Below, one piece after another: positions 2,382-32,666 of a DNA stretch of 35,442 nucleotides. Position numbers and translations under genes: made by a program. Source of the stretch: Fibrobacterota bacterium (GTDB taxonomy: Bacteria; Fibrobacterota; Fibrobacteria; UBA5070); the NCBI GenBank assembly GCA_029557215.1, contig JAKPQQ010000053.1, positions 1 to 35,442 of the forward strand, in the 5' to 3' direction. The stretch's first letter is position 1, and each line of letters begins with the position of its first letter. The notes below the pieces were generated by a model. It did no database searches, was not told the DNA's origin, and saw only the letters and a list, made by a program, of their open reading frames with translations.

Positions 2382-4390
2382 ATCACGTCCACCGGGTCGA
2401 CGTCGGCGAAGACGCGCAGGCTCCTGGGCGCGGGGACCTGCGCGAGGGTCCCGGCGACGGCCCGGCGCAGGTCGGCCGACCGTTCCGGAGGCGCCTTGCA
2501 CAGCAGGTGCTTGCGGTGGCGCCGGGCGACGATCGGGATCGGCGCGCCCAGGGGGCCCATGGCCGTGCCGGAAAACGGCTTGAGGCAGGGCGCCAGGCGT
2601 CGGGCGAAGTCGGAGATCCAGCGTTCCACCGCGGCTTCGTCCTCGCCCGAGGCCTCCACCAGGACCATGCGCGAGAACGGCGGCAGCGAGAGCGCCTCGC
2701 GGGTCCCGAGCTCCCGCCCGGCGAACCTCCCGAAATCGTGCGCGACCACGTCCCGGAGCACGTCGTCGTCGGGGCGGCGGGTCTGCAGGATCGCGATCCC
2801 GGGAAGCCCGGCGCGTCCGGCGCGGCCCACCACCTGGCACAGGAGCTGGAAGCTCCGTTCCGACGCCCTGAAGTCGGGCATGCCCGCGCCGATGTCGGAA
2901 TCCGTCACGCCCACCAGGGTGACGTCGGGGAAGTCGTGGCCCTTGGCGATCATCTGGGTCCCCAGCAGGATCCCGCCCCGGTCCAGGTAGGTGTCGAGCG
3001 TTTCTTCCTGCGCGCCCTTGCGCGAGGTCGTGTCGCGGTCCAGCCTCGCCACGGGGTGTCCCGGGAACAGGCGTTCCATCTCTTCCTGCACGCGCTGGAT
3101 CGCCCAGCCCTGCGGTTCCAGCGACGGGCTGCCGCAGCTCGGACAATTCCTGGGAGGCGGCGAGGAGTGCCCGCAGTGGTGGCACACCAGCCTTCCCGCG
3201 CCCAGGTGCCAGGTCAGGCGCAGCCCCGGGCATTCGGGGCATTCCACCGGAGCCCCGCATTCCAGGCATTCCGCCTGCGGGGCCCAGCCGCGCCGGTTGT
3301 GGAGCACCATGACGCGCTCGCCCTTGGCCAGGACCTCGGCGATCGCCGACCTCAGGCGCGGCGAAAGCGACGTGCCGGTGGCCTTCCTGCCCTGGCGAAG
3401 ATCGACGGTTTCCACCGTCGGGAGGCTTCCGGCGGCGCGGCGGGGGAGTTCGACCAGCCGGTAGCGCCCCGCGCGCGCGTTGTGCCAGCTTTCCAGCGAC
3501 GGCGTGGCCGATCCCAGCACCACCGGCACCGAACACCTGCGCGCCAGCCACACGGCCGCGTCGCGACCGTGGTAGCGCGGCGAATCGCCGTTCTGCTTGT
3601 ACGAGCCGTCGTGCTCCTCGTCGACCACCACGAACCCGAGGTCGGGAAGCGGGGCGAACAGCGCCGAACGCGGCCCCAGCGCCACCCGACAACTTCCGTC
3701 GCGAAGCGACGTCCAGGCGCGCGCGCGTTCGGAGTCGGAAATCTGGCTGTGCAGCACCGCGACGCCCGTGCCCAGCGCGTCGGCGGTGCGCCGCACGGTC
3801 TGCGGGGTGAGCCCGATCTCCGGCACCAGGATCAAGGCCTGTTTGCCGCGTTCCAGGGCTTCGCGCGCGGCGTCCAGGAACACGGCGGTCTTTCCCGAGC
3901 CGGTGATGCCGTGCAGAAGGAACGCCGAGTACGCGTCGGCCGCCACCGCCTCGCGCAGCGTCCGGGCCACCGCCGACTGGTCGGGATTGAACTCCAGCGG
4001 AGGGACCGCGATGACGGAATCCGTCGGCTTGTCGCGCTTGGCGGATGCTTTGCGCTTGCCCAGCCCCAGCCGCACGAAGCTGGATTTCCCGGCGCAGCTC
4101 CAGATGGGCCCCGCGGCCACGCCCGGCTGGCACAGGTAGTATTCGCCGATCCAGCGCGCGAGATCCACCAGGTGGGGGGGCACGAACGGCGCGTCCAGGA
4201 GGCGTTCCACCACGGGCTTGGTCTCGAACGCCGGCTCGCGGTCGTGCGCTTCCCAGACCATGGCCATCGGCCGCTTGGCGCCGAAAGGCACGAGCACCAG
4301 ATCGCCCGCGGCCAGGGTGCCGCCGGGATCCGAATAGGTGAAGGTCGGGCCCTGTCCGGACGACAGGACCACGTCGACGAATCGGCTCAA
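2378..4390 (-). CDS. priA: Primosomal protein N' (replication restart helicase PriA)
   Basis: A 670-residue superfamily 2 helicase that reloads the replisome at stalled forks. Visible motifs: N-terminal DNA-binding domain ending near residue 110; Walker A GITGSGKT at 161-168; VVDEEHDGSYKQ (DEEH box); VVLGSATPSLESW; an eight-cysteine zinc-binding insert (CLEC, CPEC, CHHC, CPSC) between helicase lobes; and the C-terminal motifs GTQMIAKGHDFP and QVVGRAGR. It is a little shorter than E. coli PriA (732), mostly in linkers. The start is TTG at 4390, overlapping the stop of the Roadblock gene as TTGA, which suggests translational coupling; the residues after it match the usual PriA N-terminus. A 13-bp near-palindrome encoding T-D-S-V (residues 123-126) sits in the linker just before the helicase domain. 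Confidence 0.97.
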   Translation of the reverse strand: MSRFVDVVLSSGQGPTFTYSDPGGTLAAGDLVLVPFGAKRPMAMVWEAHDREPAFETKPVVERLLDAPFVPPHLVDLARWIGEYYLCQPGVAAGPIWSCAGKSSFVRLGLGKRKASAKRDKPTDSVIAVPPLEFNPDQSAVARTLREAVAADAYSAFLLHGITGSGKTAVFLDAAREALERGKQALILVPEIGLTPQTVRRTADALGTGVAVLHSQISDSERARAWTSLRDGSCRVALGPRSALFAPLPDLGFVVVDEEHDGSYKQNGDSPRYHGRDAAVWLARRCSVPVVLGSATPSLESWHNARAGRYRLVELPRRAAGSLPTVETVDLRQGRKATGTSLSPRLRSAIAEVLAKGERVMVLHNRRGWAPQAECLECGAPVECPECPGLRLTWHLGAGRLVCHHCGHSSPPPRNCPSCGSPSLEPQGWAIQRVQEEMERLFPGHPVARLDRDTTSRKGAQEETLDTYLDRGGILLGTQMIAKGHDFPDVTLVGVTDSDIGAGMPDFRASERSFQLLCQVVGRAGRAGLPGIAILQTRRPDDDVLRDVVAHDFGRFAGRELGTREALSLPPFSRMVLVEASGEDEAAVERWISDFARRLAPCLKPFSGTAMGPLGAPIPIVARRHRKHLLCKAPPERSADLRRAVAGTLAQVPAPRSLRVFADVDPVDVM
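4013..4025 (+). repeat. 13-bp near-palindrome GACGGAATCCGTC (copy in priA)
   Basis: Perfect copy; it encodes T-D-S-V in the linker before the PriA helicase domain. Confidence 0.6.
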
Positions 4391-4866
4391 ATCCCGAAGA
4401 GCCGGTCCATCTGGCTTCCCACGGAATCCGCCTTGGGCGGAGCCGACTCGAGATCCGTGAACTCGTTCTTGCGCACGTCGTCGAGGATCTCGTTGACCCC
4501 CTTGATCGCCTTTTCGCTTTCCAGGCGCACGAGCCCCGGATTGGTGCGGTCGTCGAACACCAGCACCAGGATGCAGTCGTCGTCGACCAGGCTGATGTGG
4601 ATGTTGTCGGTGCGGCCCTTGTGGAAGAGCACCGTGAATTCGTTCTCGCCGATCATCTGGGCGATCGCGCGGGTGGCCGCGTACGAACCGGCCGCGAGCG
4701 CGGCCAGGGCGGTCGTGTCGAACGACTTGGTGTACCCCTGGTTGGCCAGGAGGTTGCCGTCCTTGTGCACCAGAAGCACGAAGGTGGCGCTCGCCGAAGA
4801 CAGAAGGTGTCCCAACACCTTGTTCAGGCGGTCGATGTCTTCCTTGTAGAGGATGAAGTTCGCCAT
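4387..4866 (-). CDS. Roadblock/LC7 domain protein, MglB-like
   Basis: A 159-residue protein with a Roadblock/LC7 fold across residues about 10-130. The core strands are recognisable (ATFVLLVHKDGNLLANQG, then a long helix, then FTVLFHKGRTDNIHISLVDDDCILVLVFDD). A short acidic tail follows. MglB-type Roadblock proteins act as GTPase-activating partners for MglA-type Ras-like GTPases in setting cell polarity; here the MglA-like gene lies just upstream (8-base gap), so a partnership is a reasonable inference. The stop overlaps the TTG start of priA. The ATG at 4866 follows a weak GAGAG Shine-Dalgarno. Which of the two clear Roadblock proteins in the cluster is the GAP cannot be told from sequence alone. 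Confidence 0.85.
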   Translation of the reverse strand: MANFILYKEDIDRLNKVLGHLLSSASATFVLLVHKDGNLLANQGYTKSFDTTALAALAAGSYAATRAIAQMIGENEFTVLFHKGRTDNIHISLVDDDCILVLVFDDRTNPGLVRLESEKAIKGVNEILDDVRKNEFTDLESAPPKADSVGSQMDRLFGI

Positions 4867-4874
4867 GGGTGCTC

Positions 4875-6353
4875 TCAGTGCTGTCCGGGGCCCAACGGCA
4901 TCCGGCGCGTGGGGTAGGAGTCCGATCCCTGCAGCTTGTTGAGCTCTTCCGGCGTCAGGAACGCGGAAGCGAGCGGATCCTGGCTCTGGAGGTTCGGGTT
5001 GACGTTGGGATTGGACACGATCTGGGCCTTCTGGTCGGCCAGTTCCCGTTCGTACCGGGCGATTTCCGCGTCCAGGTCGGAGGGGTCGATCGAGCCGTCG
5101 AGCTTGCTCTTCTTTTGCGGTCGATCGGGCTGCGAGGGCGCCGAACCGTGCGATCCCGGCGAGGGCGCCGCATGGGACGACGAATGCGCGGAAGGAGGCG
5201 ACGGGGGCAGGGCGGCGGGCGCGGCGAATCCTTGGAGTCCGGGAACCTGGGTTTGTTGGACCGGAGGTTGCATCGGGACCGGGTTCGACTGGAATCCCGG
5301 AACGGGAGAAGGCGCTGGGGCGGGCGCCGGAGTCCCGAAATAGTCCGTCTGCAGTCCAGGAACCTGTTGGAACGCGGGTTGGGATCCGGTCGCCGGAGGA
5401 TTGAACCCCGCGTACTGCGGAGCCCCTGCGGGCGAGGTCGGGTACGGTGCGGGAATCGGCGCTGCGGCCGGTTGCGGCGGCGGGATCGGCGGCATCGCGG
5501 GACGCGGTGGAACCGGTGCGGCGAATCCGGGTTGCAGTCCGGGAACGGCGGCCGGCGGCGGTGGCATGCTCGGACGCGGCGGAGGGGCCAAGGGAGGGAC
5601 CATCGGGGGAGCCTGCGGCGCCATCGGTCGCGGGGCCGGAGCGGCTGCCTGCTGGGGCGGCGGAGGGGCCATGGGACGCTGCGGAATCGGAGCGGGAGCG
5701 GCCTGCGGCGGGGGAGCGGTCTGGGCTTCGGGCAACGACGAAGGGCGGCGGCTGCTCTGGCGCGCGGAATACTTCGCGTTGAACGTGTCGATCACGATCT
5801 TGCCGATGGCCTTGAGCGTGGTGAACACGCCCACTCCCTGGTGGGCCTGCGCCTCGAAGGTGGGGACCTTGAACCAGTTGAGCTGCTGGTCGAGCTCCAC
5901 GATGGTGGCGACCCCGGGCAGGTCGCGCTTGTTGTACTGCAGCACGAACGGCACCGATCCGAGGTCGATGCCGTATTCCTTCAGGTTCTCCTGCAGGTTC
6001 TTGAGCGAGTCGATGTTCTCCTGCATCTTGTCGCGCTGGCTGTCGGCCACGAACACCACGCCGTCCACGCCGCGCAGCACGAGCTTGCGGGTGGCGTTGT
6101 AGTAGACCTGTCCGGGAACCGTGTAGAGCTGGAACTTGGTCGCGAACCCCTTGATGGACCCCAGGTCCAGCGGAAGGAAATCGAAGAACAGGGTGCGGTC
6201 GGTTTCCGTCGCGAGGCTGACCATCTCCGACTTCGCCTCCACGGGGATCTTCCGGTGGATGATCTGCAGGTTCGTGGTCTTGCCGGACAGGCCCGGACCG
6301 TAGTACACGATCTTGCAGGAGATTTCGCGCGTGGCGTAGTTGATCGAAGCCAT
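4875..6353 (-). CDS. mglA: MglA-like Ras-family GTPase with a long Pro-rich C-terminal extension
   Basis: Residues 1-195 are a full MglA-type small GTPase: P-loop [10 protein letters not shown] (19-28), switch segment [17 protein letters not shown] (about 49-65), PGQ (80-82) and the guanine-specificity motif NKRD (141-144). Such GTPases set polarity and drive gliding or pilus switching at the cell pole. Unlike ordinary MglA (about 195 residues), this protein continues for almost 300 more residues rich in Pro, Ala and Gln with the short word VPG(L/F)Q repeated four times. It ends in a short charged helix ([20 protein letters not shown]) and a [14 protein letters not shown] tail. The extension is probably disordered and may bind partners or the membrane. 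The ATG at 6353 has an AAGG Shine-Dalgarno at good spacing. It is flanked by two Roadblock genes, the expected regulators. Confidence 0.92.
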
Positions 6354-6363
6354 TCTTTGCCCT

Positions 6364-6699
6364 TCAGCCGATGGACTTGGCGGCCTGGCGCATTTCCACG
6401 CGCACCAGACCGACGTTGACGTTCGCCGCGGTCAGCACGACCAGCCAGCCCAGGGGGACGCCCAGCACCAGCACCTTGCCGGTTTCGCCTTCCAGCAGGA
6501 TCTGTCCCACGGCGCCCGCGCCGCAGGCGTCGCCGAGCTTCCCGCCCATGTCGGCGAGCGATGCCGCCAGCGCCGACACGAGATCGGCCATCTGGGGGTC
6601 GGTCATCTCGGCGGTGATCAGGATGCCGTCGGTTCCCACCAAGGCGCTGCCGAGGACTCCGCGTACGCGGTTGATCGATTCGAGTGCCTTATGCATCAT
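6364..6699 (-). CDS. Roadblock/LC7 domain protein
   Basis: A compact 111-residue single-domain protein with typical Roadblock features: N-terminal helix ([17 protein letters not shown]), strand [11 protein letters not shown], long Ala/Gly-rich helix ([19 protein letters not shown]) and two strands ([37 protein letters not shown]). It is likely to dimerise and bind or regulate the MglA-like GTPase encoded 10 bases downstream. Two ATG codons stand in tandem (6699 and 6696); the first is chosen because a GGAG motif stands 11 bases upstream of it. The reading frame overlaps the 3' end of the preceding gene by 11 bases, so the two are probably translated together. Confidence 0.85.
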
Positions 6700-7129
6700 G
6701 GGTCGCGCTTCTCCGTTCCTTGAGTGCCGTTTCGGCCATCTGGATGCAACGGTCGATCCGGCCCGTGAAGAGCTCGAAGCTGCCGCGCGATCCGGTGACC
6801 ACGTAGTAGTACCGATCCAGGAATTTCCTGCAATAGAGGAAATCCTCGGGGTCCTGGACAAGAAGAAAATCCGGAATCTGTCGGCCGATCCGCTTTGCGA
6901 ACTCGGCGCTCTCCTGGAGCTGGCCCACGGCCCAGGGGGCCTGGTCCAGGAACCGGTCGACGCTGTTTTCGCCCATGCCCCACACCAGCCCCGATTCGTC
7001 GAGGATGGCGGCGCCCTGCAGGCCCTTGCCCTTGCCGCCGTAGCCGTCCAGGCGCACCGCGGTCAGGTAGGAACAGATCTGGTCGAGGTCGTTCGACCAC
7101 GGCATGGTGCCGCCCAAAGGTGCGTTCAT
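6689..7129 (-). CDS. Unrecognised 146-residue protein in the MglA/Roadblock cluster
   Basis: No family was recognised with confidence. The segment LQGAAILDESGLVWGMGENS looks like the first hairpin of a Roadblock or profilin-like fold, and the second half (FLYCRKFLDRYYYVVTGSRGSFELFTGRIDRCIQMAETALKER) gives strand then helix, so a divergent Roadblock-like domain is possible. No signal peptide or membrane segment is visible, so it is probably cytoplasmic. The ATG at 7129 overlaps the upstream stop as ATGA and has a strong GAGGAG Shine-Dalgarno eight bases before it. A later Met (7105) is less likely. The tight coupling to both neighbours suggests a role in the same GTPase system. Confidence 0.75.
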   Translation of the reverse strand: MNAPLGGTMPWSNDLDQICSYLTAVRLDGYGGKGKGLQGAAILDESGLVWGMGENSVDRFLDQAPWAVGQLQESAEFAKRIGRQIPDFLLVQDPEDFLYCRKFLDRYYYVVTGSRGSFELFTGRIDRCIQMAETALKERRSATHDA

Positions 7130-7938
7130 GCGGCGTGCTCCTCGAAGGCCCGGGTGCAGCGGGCCGCCAGCAGGGATGCCGACGGACCCGTTTGGAAGAT
7201 CGCCGAGGCCTGCCGGTCGGTCTTGCGCCAGGTGTGGATGCTCCTGTCGGCGCCTTCGAAGGACGCGTGCTGCAGGCCTCCGAACGACAATCGTTCGAGG
7301 ATGCGCGAGGCGAGTTCGAACGCGAGGTCTTCCAGGACGCCGCTGGCGATTTCCGCCCGGCGGACCTCCTTGGTGCCGGATGCGTCGCGGACGCGCAGGT
7401 ACACCATCGCGGGATCGGCGCCCACCACCTTCCAGCCGCTGGGCAGGTCCAGTTCGGGAGCGGGTTCGGCCGGAGCCTGTTCGTGGAAGGCCGCCACGGA
7501 GTGCACCGACTGCACCGACTGGGAGTCGGCGGCGCCGACGGAATCCGTCGCGGCGATCCCGGGAGCCGGCGACGACGCGAAGGGTTCGGCGCGGTGGTCG
7601 GGCTCGATGAGCGGGAACAGGTGCCGGAAGTAGAGCGCCGCCATCACGTTGAACCGCTCCTTGCGGGCCAGCGTCTCGGCGCGCTGCAGGGCGCCCGGGA
7701 CGTCGCCGGCCATCCGCAGAAGCTCGATGCGGATGCATTCGGCGACCACGATCGATTCGCTGTTGCCTTGCCGCACGGCGAGTTCGACGGCGCGGTCCAC
7801 CGCCTCGAGTTCGCCGCGGCGCAACAGCAGGATCGCGTGGGCCAGGTTGAAGTTCGTGGCCAGGATCTCGCGAAGGTCGGGCCTGGAGTCGATCAGGTCG
7901 GCGAGCGTCTCGGGATGTGGGGCGACGGCTTCGCTCAT
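7126..7938 (-). CDS. Unrecognised 270-residue two-domain protein with a repetitive linker
   Basis: No family recognised. Residues about 1-120 look all-helical and TPR-like (DLREILATNFNLAHAILLLR, then [17 protein letters not shown], then GALQRAETLARKER). A Ser/Ala/Glu-rich linker follows (about 125-165), with the T-D-S-V word and SQSVQSVHSV encoded by short DNA repeats. The C-terminal 100 residues (WKVVGADPAMVYLRVRD onward) may be a small alpha/beta domain. There is no signal peptide or membrane segment. The ATG at 7938 overlaps the DUF4388 gene stop as ATGA, and the stop overlaps the next start the same way, placing it firmly in the cluster. An adaptor between the membrane protein and the GTPase module is only a guess. 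Confidence 0.7.
   Translation of the reverse strand: MSEAVAPHPETLADLIDSRPDLREILATNFNLAHAILLLRRGELEAVDRAVELAVRQGNSESIVVAECIRIELLRMAGDVPGALQRAETLARKERFNVMAALYFRHLFPLIEPDHRAEPFASSPAPGIAATDSVGAADSQSVQSVHSVAAFHEQAPAEPAPELDLPSGWKVVGADPAMVYLRVRDASGTKEVRRAEIASGVLEDLAFELASRILERLSFGGLQHASFEGADRSIHTWRKTDRQASAIFQTGPSASLLAARCTRAFEEHAA
7537..7549 (+). repeat. 13-bp near-palindrome GACGGAATCCGTC (copy in the 270-residue protein)
   Basis: Perfect copy; it encodes T-D-S-V in a low-complexity linker. The neighbouring bases hold a tandem TGCACCGAC pair (7502-7519) and the palindrome GTCGGCGGCGCCGAC. Confidence 0.6.
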
Positions 7939-9062
7939 GGCTGCTTGTTCCTTGGTTCGGACGATTCTTCGCGCAGCCAGATGTCGTAGCGGGTGCCGCG
8001 GGCGCGGTAGCCGTACTCCATTCCGAGTGTCGAATTCCGTTCGCCGCGGGTGAGGGGGACGCTGGTTCGCAGCTTGTCCAGGCCGGTGGGCCATTCGCCG
8101 GTCTCGAACCGGTAGCGCTGGATCGCCGTGTGGAGCTTGATCGATTCGAACCGGGATTCGGCGCCGATGAACCCGCGCTCCGGGACCGAGGCCAGGTGCC
8201 CGATGGCGGCGGTCATCATCCAGTTCACCAACAGCGCGGCGACCATGAGCCCTGCGCCCATGGCCAGGAGCGCCACGGTGGACGACGACCGCGGGGTGTC
8301 CGCCTCCAGCGAGATGGGGACGTGCGAATCGAAGGTCTTGCCGTCCTGCCGCAGCGTCACGTAGCCGTCGTCGGCGTAGGCGACGATGGTGTCGTAGAGA
8401 CGGAATTTGCCGAACGGGACGCGCCGTTCCAGCTCGTCGAGCGTGATCGCCGACGAATTCTGTTCCAGCTGGCGCAGGATCAGGGATTCGGGACCGAGTT
8501 CGGCGAGCGATTGCGGCAGCTGCGCCAGGGACACCTGGACTCCGGGCGATCCCAGCCGGTCGCGCAGGCGCGGCCATTCGTCCAGGCGGCGCATGCCTTC
8601 CATCGTGATCATCTCGGTGGAAAGGTTGATCCCCACGCCGCGGATCGTGCTGGAGGGCACGTCGGTGTTGAACTCGTAGGCGCCTTCCTGCCACTGGAAC
8701 AGGTCGCAGATCAGGTCTTCGGCGACGATCTGGATCCAGTCGGCGCGCTCTTCCGCAGTGATGAACTTCTTGGCGACCAGCGTTTCCAGGATGCTGCGAT
8801 CCATGGAGCGCGAAACCGATTCCACCCCGGTGAGCTCTTCGGGCGTCATGCGTCCGCACGACAGCAACCAGTCGCGGATCACGGTTTCCACGTTGCGGCC
8901 GTCGATGTCCACGTGGCTGATGTTGCCGCGCGAGATGCCGACTTCGGCCTTTTCGTGGTGGTAGGTCAGGGTGAGACGCCCGCTCTTGCGCTGCTGCAGG
9001 ATGAACTGCAGGACGTCGGGAAGCGAGAAGTCGCGAAGCTGTCCGTTCAGGGCCTGCGCCAT
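7935..9062 (-). CDS. DUF4388 (PATAN-like) protein with a membrane helix and pseudopilin-like tail
   Basis: A 375-residue protein. Residues 1-100 match the DUF4388 pattern (LRDFSLPDVLQFILQQRKSG, then RLTLTYHHEKAEVGISRGNI), a domain often found beside Roadblock, MglA and response-regulator genes. Residues 100-255 are a charged helical region. A hydrophobic segment at about 262-288 (VALLAMGAGLMVAALLVNWMM) is a membrane helix. It is followed at about 303-361 by ESIKLHTAIQRYRFETGEWP and TGLDKL, which closely resembles the region after the N-terminal helix in GspG-type pseudopilins. The predicted topology is a cytoplasmic DUF4388 part with the tail in the periplasm. The ATG at 9062 begins one base after the upstream stop; an in-frame extension to 9173 would overlap that gene and lacks domain homology. 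Confidence 0.8.
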   Translation of the reverse strand: MAQALNGQLRDFSLPDVLQFILQQRKSGRLTLTYHHEKAEVGISRGNISHVDIDGRNVETVIRDWLLSCGRMTPEELTGVESVSRSMDRSILETLVAKKFITAEERADWIQIVAEDLICDLFQWQEGAYEFNTDVPSSTIRGVGINLSTEMITMEGMRRLDEWPRLRDRLGSPGVQVSLAQLPQSLAELGPESLILRQLEQNSSAITLDELERRVPFGKFRLYDTIVAYADDGYVTLRQDGKTFDSHVPISLEADTPRSSSTVALLAMGAGLMVAALLVNWMMTAAIGHLASVPERGFIGAESRFESIKLHTAIQRYRFETGEWPTGLDKLRTSVPLTRGERNSTLGMEYGYRARGTRYDIWLREESSEPRNKQP

Positions 9063-9063
9063 G

Positions 9064-11220
9064 TCAGGCCTCCTTGATCGCGTTGGTGGCGTCCTTGCCC
9101 AGGCCGCGCACGAGTTGGATGCCGCCCAGGCAGTATAGCACAACCAGGATCCCCACCGCGACTCCTTGTCCAACCATGGTTTCGGAAACCGGGTACAACG
9201 ACAGGAAGTTGGGGAGGTTCAGGCTGTAGGCGAGGCAGGTGCCCAGCAGGAACACCTGGAAGAAGGCTCCGGCCGACGGTGCGGCCATCAGGCGTCCCGT
9301 GCCCGGCAGGGCCAGGTCCATGGTCAACCGCAGCAGCTTGCGACGGCTTTCGCTTTCGCGGTCGATCCGATCCAGCAACTGGTTGCGCAGTTCCACTTCT
9401 TCGATCCCGGAAAGCCTGCGGAAGCACTGGGCGCAGTGGATGCCCTTGCGGCAGACCCTGCACATGACCCGCCCGCAGGTGCGGCATTCGAACAAGGTCT
9501 TGCGGCGCTCCGGACGGTTTCCCCACCACAGCAGGAACACCAGCAGGGCGATCGAGGCGACCAGGATGGATTCGGGAGGGATGTCGATCAGGCCGGTCTG
9601 GAGATCCCACCGGTCGACGGTCCAGCGCTTGGCCTTGAAATCGCTCCAGATCCGGGTCCACATCTCGCGACCGGAAAGTTCTGGATCCATGACCAGGCGG
9701 TTGGGCGGCAGGGTCTGGAAGGCGTTCGAATTCTGTCGGGCCACGACGTCGATGCGGTAGCGGGCCAGCGGCGAGGCGTTGGCGATCAGCTTGGCCATGC
9801 TGTCGGTGCGGCCGCGCCAGGCGATCGATTGGCCCAGATTGAACAGCAGCGGTCCGTTGTCCCAGTTCCCCGATTGGATGGTCTGGTAGACCTTGGTGGC
9901 CGTGTCGTAGCGGGCCATCAGGAACAGCTGGTTGCCCAGGTTCGTGCCGATGCGCTGTTCGGACGGGTTCAGTCGGTAGGCTTCCCGCGCCATGTCCAGG
10001 GCCTGGGAATAGTTGGCCTGCTTGCGCAGCAGGATCGCCTTGGATGCGGTGAGGATCGCGCGCTCTTCGTTCGTGGCGCGCGCCAGGCTCTTTTCGATCC
10101 GGTTCTGCAGGTCTTCCGACCAGCCTTCCTGCACGGTCCGCTGGTAGACCGCTTCCTTGCCGGATTGGTCGAAGTGGCTGGAGATGGTGGATTCCAGGCC
10201 GGTCAACCAGGGCTGGAATCCCACGAACAGGATGATCAGTCCGATCATGACGCGTTCGTAGTGCTTGGCGCGCTTCCAGACCACCGCGGCGGCCAGGAAG
10301 CACATGCTGACCAGGCCCAGTCCGGCCACCAGCAGCGCGACGGGAATCAGGGCCAGCACGCCGTAGCGCAGGTACAGGTTGGAATCGCGTGGGAGGCGTT
10401 CGGCCAGCCCGTGCACGATGAACGGCCAGTAGCGGATCACCCACGACAGAAGCAACAACAGGCAGGTGAGCGCCAGCGCGTAGCGCAGGATGCGCAGCAC
10501 GTTGAAGGCCAGGATCTGCTGGTTTTCCGGATACGCCAACATCCGTTGGTAGGCTTCGGCGGCGTGGGAATAGGCGTCGGTCGCGTCGAAGGCGCGAAGG
10601 CTCACCTTGAACTGCGACCATGGCGGGACCGGAGAGACCGGGTCCAGGCGCGCGGCGACCACCCGGGCCATGGAGGCCTGTTCGGTCTGGTTGCCGGATT
10701 CGAATTCGGCCGCCGACGCCAACAGCCACGAAGCGGCTTCGGGCAGGCGGGTCCAGCCCTGGGCGAGCATGGTGGCTTCCATCCCTTGGGCCTGCAGGTA
10801 GAACGACGCCTTGGTTCCGTTGCGCAGCTGCAGCAGGACCATGAGCCATTGCAGGCCCAGGTCGGATTCCGACAGCCGGGACGATTCGCGGATCCAGGCG
10901 GCGCCCGAACCCGGGCGGACCTTTTCGGTCCACAGCCCCATGGCGGCGTTGCCCAGCGCGACGGCGGCCTTGTCGGCGACGGGCAGCGAATAGAATTCGG
11001 GCTGCACCTTGTCGGCCTGCACGGGTTTGCCCGAAAGCGCGGCCGCGAGATCCGGCGCCTGGGAACGGAACGTCTGGAATTTGTCCTGCGCGTCCAGCAG
11101 GCCCGCCTGGAGCGGGGTCCTGGGCAACGTGGAGCACAGTCCGACCGCGGCGAGGGCCAGAAGCATTCCTCCGAGCCTTCTGAAGTCAGGTCGGGAAAGC
11201 CGCAAGATCTTCGAAACCAT
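9064..11220 (-). CDS. Multi-pass membrane protein with TPR region and cytoplasmic zinc-binding cysteine cluster
   Basis: A 718-residue protein. It starts with a signal or anchor sequence (GGMLLALAAVGLCSTL), then a helical region to about 240. Hydrophobic segments follow (ILRYALALTCLLLLLSWVI; LALIPVALLVAGLGLVSM; VMIGLIILFVGFQPWL). A TPR-like stretch comes next (about 395-480: ANYSQALDMAREAYRLNPSE, then IGTNLGNQLFLMARYDTATK). After another membrane helix comes a zinc-type cluster at 579-599 (CRTC, CRVC, HCAQC), and two more hydrophobic segments close the protein. Function is not known. The start is uncertain: ATG 11220 overlaps the upstream gene by 35 bases and lacks a clear Shine-Dalgarno, while ATG 11166 would avoid the overlap but lose the basic residues before the hydrophobic stretch. 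Confidence 0.75.
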   Translation of the reverse strand: MVSKILRLSRPDFRRLGGMLLALAAVGLCSTLPRTPLQAGLLDAQDKFQTFRSQAPDLAAALSGKPVQADKVQPEFYSLPVADKAAVALGNAAMGLWTEKVRPGSGAAWIRESSRLSESDLGLQWLMVLLQLRNGTKASFYLQAQGMEATMLAQGWTRLPEAASWLLASAAEFESGNQTEQASMARVVAARLDPVSPVPPWSQFKVSLRAFDATDAYSHAAEAYQRMLAYPENQQILAFNVLRILRYALALTCLLLLLSWVIRYWPFIVHGLAERLPRDSNLYLRYGVLALIPVALLVAGLGLVSMCFLAAAVVWKRAKHYERVMIGLIILFVGFQPWLTGLESTISSHFDQSGKEAVYQRTVQEGWSEDLQNRIEKSLARATNEERAILTASKAILLRKQANYSQALDMAREAYRLNPSEQRIGTNLGNQLFLMARYDTATKVYQTIQSGNWDNGPLLFNLGQSIAWRGRTDSMAKLIANASPLARYRIDVVARQNSNAFQTLPPNRLVMDPELSGREMWTRIWSDFKAKRWTVDRWDLQTGLIDIPPESILVASIALLVFLLWWGNRPERRKTLFECRTCGRVMCRVCRKGIHCAQCFRRLSGIEEVELRNQLLDRIDRESESRRKLLRLTMDLALPGTGRLMAAPSAGAFFQVFLLGTCLAYSLNLPNFLSLYPVSETMVGQGVAVGILVVLYCLGGIQLVRGLGKDATNAIKEA

Positions 11221-22404: not shown

Positions 22405-23061
22405 CTAGGGAAGGCATCCTTCGGGGGCTTCCCGTGGCAGCTCGGACACGCCCAGCCGTTTCAGCGTCGCTCGTTCGCGCGGGTCGGCCGCCAGGCGGTG
22501 CTCGACCTTGATCGCCGCCCAACGTCGCGCGTATTCGCGGTGGTACGAGGCGTCGGGGGGCAGCCATTCGGCCGGATCCTTGTCGGATTTCGCCCGGTTG
22601 GCGCTCTTGCCGACGGCCAGCAGGACTTCGGGTGCGTTGGCGAAGGCGATCCGTTCTTCGCGGGTCCATGTCCAGGCCCCCGACAGCCAGGCTTCCTTGA
22701 GCGGGACGATGTGGTCGATGTCCAGGTCCTTGGGGCGACGGATCGTGTCGCCGGTGTAGGGATCGTGCCAGGCGCCGGCCGAAATGCTGCATCCGCCGTC
22801 GACCTTCGTGGAAGAACTCGCCTGGAGGATCTCCGCGCGCGTGTTCCGGCAGTCGCCGTCGTCGTCGCGCCACGAACCGAACAAGGCTTCGCGATCGAAC
22901 GACGAACGTTCTTCGGGCGTCATGCATGACGAGCCAACGGTCGAGGCCTTGGACGTTCCGGACGCGTCCTGGTGTTGGCACCTGGCCAACAGGCTCTTGC
23001 CCAGGACCAGCAAGAGGAGCGCGGCGGCGAGCGTCAATCGGGTCTTTTGTCTGCGTGTCAT
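22405..23061 (-). CDS. Secreted HNH endonuclease family protein
   Basis: A 218-residue protein. The N-terminus (TRRQKTRLTLAAALLLLVLGKSLLA) is a signal peptide or anchor. The core matches the secreted HNH family: DIDHIVPLKEAWLSGA (catalytic His), then ERIAFANAPEVLLAVGKSAN and DPAEWLPPDASYHREYARRW. Cysteines before the core (SCMTPEE, DCRNTR, GGCSI) and near the end (EGCLP) may form disulfides. It probably degrades DNA outside the cytoplasm, for nutrition or defence; no immunity partner is seen nearby. It is divergent from the hemolysin III gene and 94 bases upstream of hrpA. Confidence 0.82.
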   Translation of the reverse strand: MTRRQKTRLTLAAALLLLVLGKSLLARCQHQDASGTSKASTVGSSCMTPEERSSFDREALFGSWRDDDGDCRNTRAEILQASSSTKVDGGCSISAGAWHDPYTGDTIRRPKDLDIDHIVPLKEAWLSGAWTWTREERIAFANAPEVLLAVGKSANRAKSDKDPAEWLPPDASYHREYARRWAAIKVEHRLAADPRERATLKRLGVSELPREAPEGCLP

Positions 23062-25882: not shown

Positions 25883-25969
25883 AAACCCGGGAAATCGGGC
25901 GATGCGAGTGGTACATTTGGCGGGCCGTGGGGTCCGGAAGGTCCGGACCGCCTAGCAGGAGGGCACCTC

Positions 25970-27733
25970 GTGGACCAGGCCATTTCGGAATCCGACCTCA
26001 AAAGCTTCTTCGAACGTCTGGGACATCTGGAAAACGGATGCTCGGAGTGGCTTTTGGTGGATCCGAAGTCGCGCGAGATCCGCGGCGGCGGGTTCTTCAC
26101 CGATCTGGACCTCTTCAGCATGGCCGCCCAGAACTACGCGGGCAGCTACAACCTCCAGGTCTGCCGCAACCCGCGCCCCCGCTCGCTCATGGGCCAGCCC
26201 GGGATGAACAACCAGTTCAACCGCAGCGTGGTGCGATCCACCCCGCTGGAACAGGTCGAGGTGCTGACCACGACGGTGCTCCTGTGGCGCAGCAAGGGCA
26301 AGACCACGCTGGAACAGGTGGGAGCGATCGCGGCCGGTCTCATGAGCCGCCAGGGCATCAACGAATATTCGGTCGAGACTTCCGGGGCGTTCGTGGCCGT
26401 GCGCATCCGCTTCAACCCGTCGCCGATCCGGCGATTCGGGAGCCTGGACGACACCCGCAAGGTCTTCGCGCGGCTGGAGGAACATTTCCGCGATTCCCTC
26501 ACGTCCGAAGAAAAGGGCGATGTCGAACTGATCCCGAATTCAAGTCCGGAACTGCACGATTCGGCGGTGGGCGTGCCGCAGTACCTGGCGTCGGGCTGGA
26601 CGATGGGGCGTTGGTTGTACGCCCCCGCGGAGAAGGCCGACGCGGTCCTGGACCAGATGTTGACGGATCTTGGCCAAGGTCGCAGCGCGAAGGCCGCCGC
26701 GGTGGGGCATTCCACCACCATGCTCGCGGTGCGCACCGACGGACTCGTGAACGACTGGACGGAAGATGTCGCCTACGGCGAAGAACCTTTCGTGGAAGGC
26801 GGCGGCATCCTGCCCAAGGGCGCCAAGCTCCAGATCGAATCGGAAGAAAGCAAGCAGGCCAAGGGCCAGATCGAGAACCTGGAAGCCCTCGCGCGCGAGG
26901 CCTACCTGGGCCGCGTGCGGACTGCCTGGCGGGCCCCCGTGGCCACCAAGCCGCTCAGCCAGCGGACCGGTGGCGGAACCCGTCCCGGGGAAGTCTGGCT
27001 GATCGAAGGCAATTCCTTCCGCGCGGTCCAGGACTGGCTGATTTCGGGGATCGAAAACATCCTGAAAGGCGGCGATGCCCTGGTGTTCTGGACCAGTTCG
27101 AGGTTGTCGCCGGGAGCGTTCCATGCCCGGGGCGTGGAACGGTTGGCCGGCAAGAGCATCGAGGACATCGAAGGCATGTCGGATCCGTCGATCGCCTTGC
27201 AGGCGCAGCAGCAGTACCGCCAGCAGTTCAAGCGCATGCCCATGCTGTTCCCGCACGCGCCCACCGAATCCTTGAGCGACCTGCTGTTCCAGCAGAGGGC
27301 GTTCCGCCACAGCGACGAAGCCCTCTCGGGATTGCCCGGGCTCTGCGTGGTCGACGGCCTGGACGATTTCGGGGACGACGCGTCGGCGTTCCGGGCCTTG
27401 CGCCACTTCGCGCAGGACGCCTACAGCGCGGTGTGGATCGGGGCCGTGGGTCCCACCAGGGTCCCGCCGTCGCAGGTGGATCTCCATCTTTCCCTGGTCC
27501 TGGGCGAACCGGCCATCCGCGCCTGGCTCGACAGCCCCGCGGTGGTGGGCGACGCCGACCTCGCGCTGTCCAGGCAAGTCCTGCCGCGCCTGTTCCCGGA
27601 GCTCGCGCAGGGGCGCGTCCCGTGCGCGGTGCGGGTGGTCAACGCCCACGAAGGCTGGACCATGCACGCCTACCATCTCTACTATCCGGGCACGGGTCGG
27701 TTCCAGAACATCGTGCCCAAGAAAGAGGGCTGA
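25970..27733 (+). CDS. Primase-helicase-like protein lacking catalytic residues (unrecognised family)
   Basis: A 587-residue protein. Residues about 25-150 follow the pattern of bifunctional archaeo-eukaryotic primases: GGGFFTDLDLFSMAAQNYAG, NLQVCRNPRPRSL, NNQFNRSV, VLTTTVLLW, then a helix and SVETSGAFVAVRIRF. In active members the VLLW strand ends in an Asp-x-Asp metal site, and the later loop is SGNGxH; here they read LLWRSKG (104-110) and TSGAFVAV, so both are lost. Residues 338-480 resemble a RecA/DnaB-type domain: EVWLIEGNSFRAVQDWL replaces the Walker A, while PGLCVVDGLDDF resembles a Walker B. It is therefore probably non-catalytic; the assignment rests on pattern memory. The GTG start 25970 has AGGAGG (25957-25962) seven bases upstream. 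It heads the operon containing ftsX and envC. Confidence 0.6.
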   Translation: MDQAISESDLKSFFERLGHLENGCSEWLLVDPKSREIRGGGFFTDLDLFSMAAQNYAGSYNLQVCRNPRPRSLMGQPGMNNQFNRSVVRSTPLEQVEVLTTTVLLWRSKGKTTLEQVGAIAAGLMSRQGINEYSVETSGAFVAVRIRFNPSPIRRFGSLDDTRKVFARLEEHFRDSLTSEEKGDVELIPNSSPELHDSAVGVPQYLASGWTMGRWLYAPAEKADAVLDQMLTDLGQGRSAKAAAVGHSTTMLAVRTDGLVNDWTEDVAYGEEPFVEGGGILPKGAKLQIESEESKQAKGQIENLEALAREAYLGRVRTAWRAPVATKPLSQRTGGGTRPGEVWLIEGNSFRAVQDWLISGIENILKGGDALVFWTSSRLSPGAFHARGVERLAGKSIEDIEGMSDPSIALQAQQQYRQQFKRMPMLFPHAPTESLSDLLFQQRAFRHSDEALSGLPGLCVVDGLDDFGDDASAFRALRHFAQDAYSAVWIGAVGPTRVPPSQVDLHLSLVLGEPAIRAWLDSPAVVGDADLALSRQVLPRLFPELAQGRVPCAVRVVNAHEGWTMHAYHLYYPGTGRFQNIVPKKEG

Positions 27734-27747
27734 AGCTGGCCGGTCGG

Positions 27748-28611
27748 ATGTCGTTTTTCGGTCAGCTCGCCTGGTTGTTCCGCGAGTCCGTCAGGGGGTT
27801 CCGCCGTTCGGGCGGGGCCACCCTCGCCGCCACATGGAGCACGGCGTTGGCCTGTTCCCTGCTGTTCGCGTTCCTGTACGGGGCGCAGGTGTGGTCCGAC
27901 TGGTCGGGAAGCGAGGTCGAGCGGCAAGGCTGGGTGGAGGCCTTCCTGCTGGACGACGCCCCCCCGCGGGAGCTGCTGGCTTCGATCCAGCGGATCCCCG
28001 ACGCGGGCAAGGCCGTGTTCGTCGACAAGGAACAGGCCAGACGCCGGTTCGTGGAACGGTTCGGGTCCGAGATGCTGGACGCCCTGGACAGCAACCCCTT
28101 GCCGGTTTCCGTCAGGATCCAGGTGTCCAGGACGGAGCCCGCGGCGATCGATTCGTTCGTCGCGAGGTTGGCCCGGATCCCGGGCGTGGAGTCGGTCGAT
28201 TCGCCGCGCACCAGCCTGGACGACCTGCAGCGGTTCCAGTCGTGGGTGCTGCGGGTGGGATTGGCTTCGGGCCTGCTGCTGTTCGGGGTGGTGTTCGGGG
28301 TGATCCGCAACAGCACCCAGCTTTCGCTGCGTTCGCGCGACCGCCTGATCGACAACATGCGGATCCTGGGAGCCACCCGGTTCCAGATCGAACTCCCGTT
28401 CGCGGTGGAAGGCGCGATGCAGGGGCTCCTGGGCGGCCTGCTGGCGTCGGCGATCCCGTGGATCATGCTGTGGGCCGCGCGCAACTTCCTGCCCGTGCCG
28501 GTTCCCGTCGAATCGTTCTGGGGACTGCGGGCCGCCGCCGCCACGCTCGTGTTCTCCGGATTGGCGGGATTGGCCGGCGGCTGGTGGACGGTGCGGCGAT
28601 CGTTCCGGTGA
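27748..28611 (+). CDS. ftsX: Cell division protein FtsX
   Basis: A 287-residue inner-membrane protein: one N-terminal helix (GATLAATWSTALACSLLFAF), a periplasmic domain (about 50-165: EVERQGWVEAFLLDDAPPRE, then IPGVESVDSPRTSLDDLQRF), and three C-terminal helices with the MacB/FtsX-type core (LRSRDRLIDNMRILGATRFQIELPFAVEGAMQGLLGG). FtsX normally pairs with the ATPase FtsE and activates periplasmic peptidoglycan hydrolases through EnvC, whose gene follows with a GTGA overlap. No ftsE is adjacent. ATG 27748 lies 14 bases after the preceding stop. Confidence 0.93.
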   Translation: MSFFGQLAWLFRESVRGFRRSGGATLAATWSTALACSLLFAFLYGAQVWSDWSGSEVERQGWVEAFLLDDAPPRELLASIQRIPDAGKAVFVDKEQARRRFVERFGSEMLDALDSNPLPVSVRIQVSRTEPAAIDSFVARLARIPGVESVDSPRTSLDDLQRFQSWVLRVGLASGLLLFGVVFGVIRNSTQLSLRSRDRLIDNMRILGATRFQIELPFAVEGAMQGLLGGLLASAIPWIMLWAARNFLPVPVPVESFWGLRAAAATLVFSGLAGLAGGWWTVRRSFR

Positions 28612-29918
28612 AGAGGCTCTTGGCATTCGTCCTCGCCTGCGCCGCGCTCGTCCGCGCTTCGAGCGTGTCTGAACTGGAAGACCGCATCGCCGACGAGAAG
28701 AAACAGCTCTCGCGCATGCGTTCCGAGCTGGAGGAGGGGCGCAGGAAGCTCCGGGAGCTGGCCGCGCAGGCCCGCGACCAGGAGACCGACCTGGTCCAAC
28801 TCGAATCCAACCTGAAGCTGGGCGAACGGATCCTGGCCGGCCTGGATTCCACCGAGGCGCTGTACCGCCGGTTGGTCGACAGGTCGCATACCGAAGCCGA
28901 GCGCGCTTCGGCCGCCTGGAAGGAGCGCCGCCGGTTGCTGGCGCTGCGGATCCGCCAGATGTACGTGCGCGGGAGGCCGTCCCCGCAGGCGAGCTGGATC
29001 GGGAAGTCGGATCCGTCCGAGTGGGGGCGCACGCTGGCCGATTTCCGGGCCGTGGTGAAGGCCGATCGCAACCTGATCCGGCTGGTGGAGGTGCGCGAAG
29101 CCGCCGCGCGCAAGGAGCTGGCGGCCCACCGCAAGCGGGTGGATGGGCTCCGGGAGGTCTCGGAACAGAAGCGGCAGGATCTGTCGCAATTGGAACAGGA
29201 GCGCCGGAGCAAGGAAGGCGCGCTGTCCGAGCTGCGCACCCGGGAACAGGCCGAGCGCGACAGGTTGGCGGCCATGGAGGCTTCGCAGAAGGTCCTGGAA
29301 AAGCTCCTGCAGGATCTGGAGCGCCGTCGCGAAAAGGCCGAACTGGAACGTCGCCGCGCGGAAGAAGAGGCCCGCAAGCGCGAAGAAGAACGCAAGCGGC
29401 GCGAAGAAGAACACCGAAAGGAAGCCGCCAAGCGCAAGAAGGAAGGCAAACCGCCTCCGCCGCCGCCCAAGCCGATGCCTCCCGCGCCGCCTCCGCCGCC
29501 CAAGCAGGACAAGGCGCTGGCGGGTCCGCCGCCGGCCAGGAAGGGGCTTTGCTGGCCGGTGCAGGGGCCTGTCTTGTCGAAATTCGGCCTGGAGAAGAAT
29601 CCGGTCCTTGGAACCGTCACGCGCAATCTGGGCGTGGAAATCGGCGGGAAGGCCGATCAGAAGGTGGTTTCGGCCGCTTCGGGCCGCGTCGCGGCGGTGA
29701 CGGAACTGCCCGGAAGAGGCCATACGGTGATCCTCGAGCACCCGGGCGGCTATTTTTCCATCTATGGACAACTCGGACGCACGCAGGTGTCGGTGGGACA
29801 GGCCGTGTCGGCCTGCTCGGAACTGGGCAAGCTCGCGCCGGAAAATCCGCCACGCGTCTATTTCGAATACCGCCACAACCTGAAGGCCGAGGACCCCCTG
29901 GAATGGCTGACAAGATGA
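28608..29918 (+). CDS. envC: EnvC-like murein hydrolase activator (degenerate LytM/M23 domain)
   Basis: A 436-residue periplasmic protein. Signal peptide KRLLAFVLACAALVRASS, long charged coiled coil (about 20-290, with RRRAEEEARKREEERKRREE), a Pro-rich spacer (PPPPPPKPMPPAPPPPP), then a LytM/M23 domain from about residue 310. The zinc ligands of active M23 peptidases are missing: the HxGxD segment reads NLGVEIG, and the final YAHL-type motif reads IYGQL. This matches EnvC-type activators, which do not cut peptidoglycan but switch on amidases. GTG 28608 overlaps the ftsX stop, and its partner FtsX is directly upstream, as expected. Confidence 0.9.
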   Translation: MKRLLAFVLACAALVRASSVSELEDRIADEKKQLSRMRSELEEGRRKLRELAAQARDQETDLVQLESNLKLGERILAGLDSTEALYRRLVDRSHTEAERASAAWKERRRLLALRIRQMYVRGRPSPQASWIGKSDPSEWGRTLADFRAVVKADRNLIRLVEVREAAARKELAAHRKRVDGLREVSEQKRQDLSQLEQERRSKEGALSELRTREQAERDRLAAMEASQKVLEKLLQDLERRREKAELERRRAEEEARKREEERKRREEEHRKEAAKRKKEGKPPPPPPKPMPPAPPPPPKQDKALAGPPPARKGLCWPVQGPVLSKFGLEKNPVLGTVTRNLGVEIGGKADQKVVSAASGRVAAVTELPGRGHTVILEHPGGYFSIYGQLGRTQVSVGQAVSACSELGKLAPENPPRVYFEYRHNLKAEDPLEWLTR

Positions 29919-30952
29919 CGGAACGTGCCTGCACGGTTCCCGAAACCCTCTCCGGGCTGCGGGCCGCGGCTTCGCAAGGACGATTTCCGTCGGTCCTTCT
30001 GCTCGTGGTCGCCCGCGGGGAAGGCACGCCGTTGCTCCTGGACCTGGCCCAGGCGCTGCTGTGCCCGAACGCCGAGGACCTCGTGGCCTGCGGGAGCTGC
30101 CCGGACTGCCGACAGTTCTCGTCGGGGCATTCGCGGGCCCTTTGGCTTCTGCCCAACGTGTCGGAGGAAATGGCCCAGAAGATCGAGCCCTACGGCCCCG
30201 AAGCCATCCTGAAGGATGTCTGGAAGGTCGCGACCCCGCCGCCATCGGCGCAGATCCCGATCGGCGGCGAAAACACCGACCCCACCTACCCGATGATGGT
30301 CGCCGGCGTGCGAGGTCTGGCGGGCCGGTTGGCGATGTCGGAAAAGCTCAACCGGGTCGTGCTGGTCCCGTTCGCCGAACAATTGAACCAGGCCAGTTCC
30401 AACGCCCTGCTCAAGATCCTGGAAGAACCGCCCGATCGCGTCTATTTCCTGATGGCCGCCCCCGCCGCCGAACGGGTCCTGCCCACCATCCGTTCGCGCA
30501 GCTTCCTGCAGGCGGTGCCGCCGCTTTCGTCGCAGCGGGTGGAATCGTTCCTGGTCTCGCGCGGCGTGGATGCCCAGGCCGCCCGCGAAGCCGCCGCCCG
30601 CTCCTTGGGCCGACCCGGCGCCGCCCTGGCCTTGTGCTCGCCCGAAGCCCGCGAGGCGCGCAAGCGCGCGATCCAATGGATCGAGCTGTGCCGCGGTCGC
30701 GACGCCGAGGCCGCGTTTTCCTGGATCCAGGAATCCGAAGAACTTTCCGCGAAGGACCGCCGTCCCTCGCAAACACTGCTCGAAACCGCGTTGGGCGAGC
30801 TCGAGGAACGGCTGCGGTCCACCACCGACCGTCCCGAGATCGAAGCCCTGGACGCCTTGCGGCAATCCATGGAGAAGGCCCTGAAAGACATATCCAACCA
30901 CGCCAAACCGCAGATGGCCTTCGTGGCCTCATGGCTCGGTGCGCATGCCTGA
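29915..30952 (+). CDS. holB: DNA polymerase III subunit delta'
   Basis: A 345-residue clamp-loader subunit. The zinc-binding cysteines (CPNAEDLVACGSCPDC) and the hallmark LNQASSNALLKILEEPPDR are present, with TIRSRS after it. The P-loop is degenerate (VVARGEGTPLLLDL), as expected for delta', which does not bind ATP. Between the zinc module and the core lies an unusual insert (SEEMAQKIEPYGPEAILKD). The start is taken as ATG 29915 in the ATGA overlap with envC, in keeping with the other junctions here. ATG 29903, 12 bases earlier, has a better Shine-Dalgarno (GAGG) and remains possible. Confidence 0.92.
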   Translation: MTERACTVPETLSGLRAAASQGRFPSVLLLVVARGEGTPLLLDLAQALLCPNAEDLVACGSCPDCRQFSSGHSRALWLLPNVSEEMAQKIEPYGPEAILKDVWKVATPPPSAQIPIGGENTDPTYPMMVAGVRGLAGRLAMSEKLNRVVLVPFAEQLNQASSNALLKILEEPPDRVYFLMAAPAAERVLPTIRSRSFLQAVPPLSSQRVESFLVSRGVDAQAAREAAARSLGRPGAALALCSPEAREARKRAIQWIELCRGRDAEAAFSWIQESEELSAKDRRPSQTLLETALGELEERLRSTTDRPEIEALDALRQSMEKALKDISNHAKPQMAFVASWLGAHA

Positions 30953-32666
30953 AGAAATCATCCAGGCGCTTCCCGGTCCGCTTCTCGAGGTGCTTCGCCA
31001 TCGCGGGGTTCCCGACTCCGAACTGGACGCGCGCTTTTCCTGGAATCCCGACGAGCTTCGCGACCGGATCCTGTCCGCGACCGGCGAACAGGGCATCATG
31101 GGATTCGACGCGGCCGTCGCCGCGATGCTTTCCGCCCGCGAAAAGGGCGAGACGGTGGTGGTCCACGGCGACTACGACGTCGACGGCATGACGGGCACCG
31201 CCATCCTGTGGCTGGCCCTGCGCCGATCGGGGATCCACTGCGGTTGGACGCTTCCGCGTCGCGACGGCGAAGGCTACGGCCTGTCCGACGCGTCCCTGGA
31301 ACGCTGCCAGCGCACGGAAGACGTGTTCGGGCTTCCCGACACCGCCCCGCGCGAGGCTTCTTGGGTGGTTTCCGTGGACACCGGCATCACCGCCTGCGCC
31401 CCGATCGCGCGCGCGCGGGAGCGCGGACTCAAGGTGCTCCTGACCGACCACCACCTGCCGGGAGAGGAATTCCCGGTGGCCGCCGAAGTCGTGCTCGATC
31501 CGCACCAGGCGGGATGCGCCTACCCCAACAAGGGGCTTTGCGGCGCCGCGCTGGCCTGGAAGCTGGGTTCCGCCGTGCTGCGGGCCGTGGGGATGGACGT
31601 CGAATCCGACCCCGAGCGCCTGCTGCAGCTGGTGGCCCTGGGCACGCTCGCCGACATGGTGCCGCTGACGGTGGAGAATCTCGCCCTGGTGCGCATGGGA
31701 CTGGTGGAACTCAAGGAGCGTCCTCTGCCCGGGATCGCCGAGCTGTTGAAGTCGGCGCAGGTTTCCACGAATTCCGTCCCCAAGGGACAGGAATTGGTCT
31801 TCCGGGTGACGCCGCGCCTGAATTCGGCGGGGCGTCTGCGCAAGGGCGAAGTCGCCGTGCGCTTGATGCTGGCCGCCAACCAGGACGAAGCCCACCGCAT
31901 GATGGAAGGCCTGGAGTCGCTCAACCACGAGCGGCAGGCCCTGGACCAGCGCATCACCGCCGAGGCGTTGACGCAGTGCAAGCACCTGTTCACCGACGAC
32001 GGCGTCGCCCCCAACGCGTTTTTGCTTTCCGGCGAGACCTGGCACGAGGGCGTGTCGGGAATCGTCGCCCAGCGCGTGGCGGAAAAGTACGGGCGCCCGG
32101 CGCTGGTGCTCGCTCCCGACCCCGGACAGCCGCTGGAATGGCGGGGGTCCGGGCGTTCCGTCCCCGGGATCGATCTGCACGCGGCCCTGGCCCGGTGCTC
32201 GCATCTCATGGAGAAGTGGGGCGGACATTCGCAGGCGGCGGGTCTGTCGCTGCGCAAGGACCGCACGGCCGAATTCCGCCTAGCGTTCGAGGCCGCGGTG
32301 GCCGACGCCCGCGCGGCGGCGGCCCCGAAGCCCGTGGCCGGCGAGGCCCGCGCCGATTTCGCCGATCTTTCCCCGGAGCTTCTGGGGTGGATCGAGCGGT
32401 TGGGGCCATGGGGTCCCACCAACCAGGCTCCGGTGTTCTGGACGGAATCCGTTCAGATCGCGGGCATGTCGCGGGTGGGCGAAGGCAAGCATCTGCGGTT
32501 GTCGCTGCGCCAGGGCGACATCCAGCTGGACGGGATCGGGTTCGGGATGGGCGAACTCGCGAAGACGCTCGTCGTCGGACAGTCGGTGCGCGTGGCCTTC
32601 CATCCGGAATGGAACGACTTCCGCGGAAGACGCAACATCCAGATCAAGATCAAGGAGATCCAATGA
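30945..32666 (+). CDS. recJ: Single-stranded-DNA-specific exonuclease RecJ
   Basis: A 573-residue DHH-superfamily 5'-3' exonuclease acting in recombination and mismatch repair. Motifs: VVHGDYDVDGMTGTA (DYDVDG at 76-81), SVDTGITA, LLTDHHLPGEE (DHH), DPHQAGCAYPNKGLCGAALAWK, ALGTLADMVPL, and the DHHA1 motif WGGHSQAAGLSL. A C-terminal OB-like domain follows. Start ATG 30945 overlaps the holB stop by eight bases; a GTG six bases earlier is possible. Its stop overlaps the argH start as ATGA. Confidence 0.97.
   Translation: MPEEIIQALPGPLLEVLRHRGVPDSELDARFSWNPDELRDRILSATGEQGIMGFDAAVAAMLSAREKGETVVVHGDYDVDGMTGTAILWLALRRSGIHCGWTLPRRDGEGYGLSDASLERCQRTEDVFGLPDTAPREASWVVSVDTGITACAPIARARERGLKVLLTDHHLPGEEFPVAAEVVLDPHQAGCAYPNKGLCGAALAWKLGSAVLRAVGMDVESDPERLLQLVALGTLADMVPLTVENLALVRMGLVELKERPLPGIAELLKSAQVSTNSVPKGQELVFRVTPRLNSAGRLRKGEVAVRLMLAANQDEAHRMMEGLESLNHERQALDQRITAEALTQCKHLFTDDGVAPNAFLLSGETWHEGVSGIVAQRVAEKYGRPALVLAPDPGQPLEWRGSGRSVPGIDLHAALARCSHLMEKWGGHSQAAGLSLRKDRTAEFRLAFEAAVADARAAAAPKPVAGEARADFADLSPELLGWIERLGPWGPTNQAPVFWTESVQIAGMSRVGEGKHLRLSLRQGDIQLDGIGFGMGELAKTLVVGQSVRVAFHPEWNDFRGRRNIQIKIKEIQ

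Follow-up and report, generated by a model that had tools for sequence, protein, structure and literature searches.

A conserved gene preceding ftsX and envC in some Fibrobacteria encodes a probable primase-helicase descendant without catalytic residues

What kind of protein is encoded at the head of an ftsX-envC operon in a member of the Fibrobacterota, if it resembles a primase-helicase without the expected active sites, and what may it be kept for? An earlier note on this locus had regarded the gene as a non-enzymatic relic of a replicative protein. The window, which is the whole stretch of DNA analysed here (35,442 nt), contains the following arrangement.

25957..25962 (+): Shine-Dalgarno sequence AGGAGG, 5' of the GTG start, recognised from the sequence
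25970..27733 (+): pseudo-primase-helicase gene, 587 aa, first gene of the ftsX-envC-holB-recJ operon
27748..28611 (+): ftsX (Pfam FtsX_ECD and FtsX)
28608..29918 (+): envC-like M23 peptidase gene (Pfam Peptidase_M23)
29903..30952 (+): holB, delta prime (Pfam DNA_pol3_delta2)
30939..32666 (+): recJ (Pfam DHH, DHHA1, RecJ_OB)

The reading frame of 587 aa at 25970-27733 (+) was confirmed as a real gene by its ribosome binding site, with the GTG start 7 bases past AGGAGG, by a GC content per codon position of 0.66/0.46/0.86, which is typical of coding composition, and by an orthologue with 77% identity in a congener, the dN/dS ratio being about 0.09. Its stop codon is separated from the ATG of ftsX at 27748 by a gap of 14 bases, and the genes follow in the order ftsX, envC, holB, recJ. 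Promoter and terminator scans yielded results at or below chance level. No credible match to the protein was obtained in Pfam, NCBIfam, PHROGs, PADLOC or PDB sequences; chance-level matches to single members were all that PHROGs returned, and the PDB sequence searches likewise gave chance matches only. No paper on the gene was found in the literature. A defence gene was dropped as a candidate because PADLOC gave no match, and a membrane protein because a strongly hydrophobic segment is absent. The protein is acidic, as is true DnaB.

Two other regions of the window were recorded. At 4390-9173 (-), beside priA, a cluster encodes a small GTPase, MglA-like by eye, which matches Arf/Gtr1 and carries a long tail rich in proline; the other products of this cluster, which may be a polarity or motility-type module, are a DUF4388 protein and two proteins of the Roadblock/LC7 type. 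A GmrSD_C domain is present in a protein of 218 aa encoded at 22408-23061 (-).

When 168 Fibrobacterota genomes were searched, homologues of the pseudo-primase-helicase were detected in 8, two belonging to the genus of the window and six to one genus in another family. Members of the six-genome clade are 57-79% identical to a reference member and about 20% identical to the window protein. The alignment of all eight spans their length and contains 57 invariant columns. In every member whose contig spans the site, ftsX is located directly 3' of the gene; in two genomes (G012 and G018) the gene lies at a contig end and ftsX at the end of another contig. The distance to ftsX is 14-63 bp, except for about 880 bp in G014 (L012 5256-6133). 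Since the 5' neighbour differs between the clades, a TrmB-type methyltransferase gene in one and tsaD in the other, the link to ftsX outlived a change on the far side. The position before ftsX, holB and recJ pointed out in the earlier note was supported, the ftsX-envC placement being conserved over a large evolutionary distance. The sister genus within the family and three further families lack the gene; there, ftsX heads an otherwise retained operon. In a tree of FtsX, EnvC, HolB and RecJ, the two carrier groups stand apart with non-carriers in between. Because the gene occupies the same locus in both groups, one origin followed by later losses is favoured over two gains, although a nearby node has just 0.78 support.

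Comparison of the two congeners gave a dN of 0.167, a dS of 1.87 and a ratio of 0.09, with 0.07 for the AEP-like and 0.11 for the DnaB-like part; these ratios are approximate, as dS is close to saturation. For the four downstream genes, ftsX, envC, holB and recJ, values of 0.10-0.19 were obtained. The gene is plainly under purifying selection, about as strong as that on its operon neighbours. With a ratio of about 0.09 and intact frames, a decaying pseudogene was ruled out, and the term relic is misleading for a gene whose ratio is as low as or below those of its neighbours.

Within the protein, the following parts were distinguished.

25970..26611 (+): N-terminal AEP-like domain, residues 1-214 (hhalign, AEP cluster first of 50 families)
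26084..26110 (+): GGGFFTDLD, residues 39-47, conserved G-x-GFF-x-D-x-D, matching the AEP 'SGFFDD' element
26276..26296 (+): VLLWRSK, residues 103-109, where AEP motif I (LLIDIDP) is expected, without its Asp pair
26369..26413 (+): SVETSGAFVAVRIRF, at the place of AEP motif II (ADSGNGxHLLYRI), His absent
26612..26956 (+): acidic low-confidence linker, residues 215-329 (pLDDT mostly <50; net charge)
26957..27730 (+): predicted C-terminal DnaB-type RecA domain, residues 330-587 (Foldseek, PDB and BFVD)
27002..27031 (+): IEGNSFRAVQ, residues 345-354, in place of Walker A (DnaB LAGRPAMGKT; hhalign register against DnaB)
27347..27370 (+): VVDGLDDF, at the place of Walker B; all 8 proteins share Asp462 and Asp465

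According to the models, the C-terminal half is a RecA core of DnaB topology, as had been proposed earlier. AlphaFold predictions had a mean pLDDT of 52 for a homologue and 47 for the window protein, with about 60-86 in the C-terminal core, and DnaB was the top PDB match of both in Foldseek searches (E 4.7e-10 for the homologue and 2.4e-7 for the window protein). Phage DnaB-type helicases were retrieved from BFVD. Profile comparison of this half with DnaB was not significant (hhalign, P 0.06-0.07), but the profile alignment matches RPGEVWLIEGNSFRAVQ to the strand and P-loop of DnaB. This register agrees with the replacement of Walker A by IEGNSFRAVQ claimed before; Walker A (GxxxxGK[ST]) is absent from all eight homologues, and the P-loop place differs between the clades (IEGNSFRAVQ versus LQCDPFAAEL). 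At the place of the catalytic Glu of DnaB (FSLEM, after the second strand; register by eye), Lys or Arg is found instead. An AKxR-like element, similar to the finger of DnaB, is retained in the six-member clade. As a separate observation, another genome (G016, L097 from 1411, +) encodes a protein that combines a DnaB-like ATPase domain with a tail which by eye appears to be of the Clp N-terminal type.

The N-terminal half was compared with 34 AEP proteins with DxD and SGNGxH taken from viral contigs; the bait, a consensus sequence, served only for fetching these real sequences. The profile match had a P of 0.0028 over 151 collinear columns (hhalign). The score was reached by none of 150 column-shuffled AEP templates and by 10 of 150 block-shuffled ones, none of these across at least 120 columns. 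When the two clades were aligned separately to AEP, the register was identical at 64 of 150 shared positions. The N-terminal half was also scored against 50 clusters of proteins, picked blindly from the fetched loci; the cluster of full-length AEPs ranked first (P 0.009), followed by a cluster with P 0.08. A narrower AEP subset with P 0.0006 was picked after the fact and is left out of the evidence. Among the 50 fold matches listed by Foldseek no AEP was present, the N-terminal half of the models being of low confidence (pLDDT about 50 or below). By profile comparison, this half is probably an AEP primase domain by origin: of the earlier note's primase pattern the profile resemblance stood, likely if not proven, and the fold search supported DnaB for the C-terminal half. 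In both halves the likeness goes beyond chance, though less strongly in the N-terminal one. The strings quoted there, the FFTDLDLF region, CRNPRP (residues 65-70), NNQFNR (residues 80-85), VLLW and IEGNSFRAVQ, were all found in the window protein.

The AEP superfamily is defined by motifs I (hhhDhD/E), II (sxH) and III (hD/E) (PMC4538821). Motif I is replaced by VLLWRSK in the window protein and by LLFKPxL-type sequences in others, and TSGAFVAV or FLTGVxVR stands where SGNGxH is expected. Motif III could be carried by GDVELIPN in the window clade; in the other clade no acidic residue was seen at that site. Alignment of the homologues revealed that DxD and SGNGxH are absent at the expected places in 8 of 8, so that the missing Asp pair and loop noted before are losses common to every homologue found. 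In the genomes examined, neither Prim-Pol (PF09250) nor, in a search without positive control, intact AEP genes elsewhere were found.

The explanation preferred here, with confidence about evenly balanced, is that the protein is a pseudo-enzyme derived from a mobile-element AEP-DnaB fusion and kept as a non-catalytic scaffold binding DNA or a partner. An ancestor within Fibrobacteria would have captured a fusion of an AEP primase, of the kind found in phages or plasmids, with a DnaB-like helicase; priming and ATP hydrolysis would have been lost and the protein retained as structural. A structural role is suggested because catalysis appears lost yet conservation is strong. The RecA domain would most likely mediate assembly, perhaps into a DnaB-like ring, and DNA or a replication or repair partner could be bound through retained surfaces by a scaffold presumably co-expressed with ftsX, envC, holB and recJ. 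Given the DnaB ancestry, a ring holding DNA or a partner would be the simplest extension. The AEP origin has fair support from sequence profiles; oligomerisation and DNA binding are conjectural, and so is the choice of operon partner.

A possible but doubtful alternative is that the protein assists HolB or RecJ in replication or repair without catalysis of its own, ftsX and envC being mere operon mates. The ancestral type, a replication protein, and the presence of holB and recJ in the operon are in its favour, and Twinkle, the mitochondrial helicase whose primase half lost its activity while the protein keeps a role, provides a precedent (PMC7231222); however, holB is three genes distant and recJ four. 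It is rather unlikely that only the C-terminal half is DnaB-like and the AEP resemblance of the N-terminal half is due to chance. While the low-confidence model and the weak profile P (0.003) would allow this, the first rank among 50 families, the full-length collinearity and the domain order of intact AEP-DnaB fusions argue against it. An adaptor that would detect DNA or the state of the fork and control peptidoglycan hydrolysis by FtsX-EnvC is unlikely. In both clades ftsX is the nearest and most persistent neighbour, with a gap of 14 bases in the window, but many lineages have ftsX-envC without this gene, and since holB and recJ belong to the same operon, its position does not favour division. 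Operon position is the one hint of a division link and fits replication and repair equally well. An enzyme with unorthodox residues, such as a switch that binds nucleotide and has a P-loop of non-Walker type, is very unlikely, for despite the invariant Asp462 and Asp465 and the finger-like element of the six-member clade, the P-loop place is unconserved across clades and the residue at the catalytic Glu place is basic.

To our knowledge, few inactivated replication enzymes are kept for structural work, and we know of none in which primase and helicase halves are both inactive yet under selection. The scaffold proposed here would be a compact case of domestication of a replication protein from a mobile element. 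If the operon position is meaningful, it would also be a candidate for coupling cell separation to replication; that a doubly inactivated primase-helicase was domesticated in some Fibrobacteria as a structural bridge from chromosome replication to the cell separation driven by FtsX-EnvC is, in this full form, a long shot.

Comparison with known systems revealed both likeness and difference. In many bacteria, ftsX is adjoined by ftsE, its usual partner gene. FtsE is unrelated to the pseudo-primase-helicase, which has neither an ABC ATPase signature nor a Pfam or NCBIfam match, and replacement of FtsE was ruled out, the best FtsE match lying at an unlinked site in the genomes examined. With DnaB helicase (PF03796) the protein shares the RecA fold by Foldseek and the Walker B Asp; unlike DnaB, it lacks Walker A, the catalytic Glu and a Pfam DnaB match. 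Replacement of DnaB was ruled out, as a separate DnaB is encoded in the genome. The order AEP, linker, DnaB-type RecA domain is the same in viral AEP-DnaB_C/AAA_25 fusions (L111, L177, L178, L179), exemplified by the intact L111 protein of 689 aa, in which DxD and SGNGxH are followed by DnaB_C/AAA_25 with GNSSSGKS. These fusions are 684-714 aa long, compared with 587-631 aa in the Fibrobacteria family, and keep the P-loop (GKS, GKT or AKS) and, in nearly all of them, DxD and SGNGxH, whereas the Fibrobacteria family has none of these and, unlike the fusions on viral contigs, is chromosomal and part of a conserved operon. The otherwise intact-looking L179 protein (2477-4621) has SANSYH where SGNGxH is expected, possibly a step in motif erosion. 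Twinkle, like the pseudo-primase-helicase, is a primase-helicase fusion with an inactive primase half (PMC7231222), but it combines a TOPRIM primase half with a working helicase, while the protein described here has an AEP-like primase half and catalytic residues in neither half.
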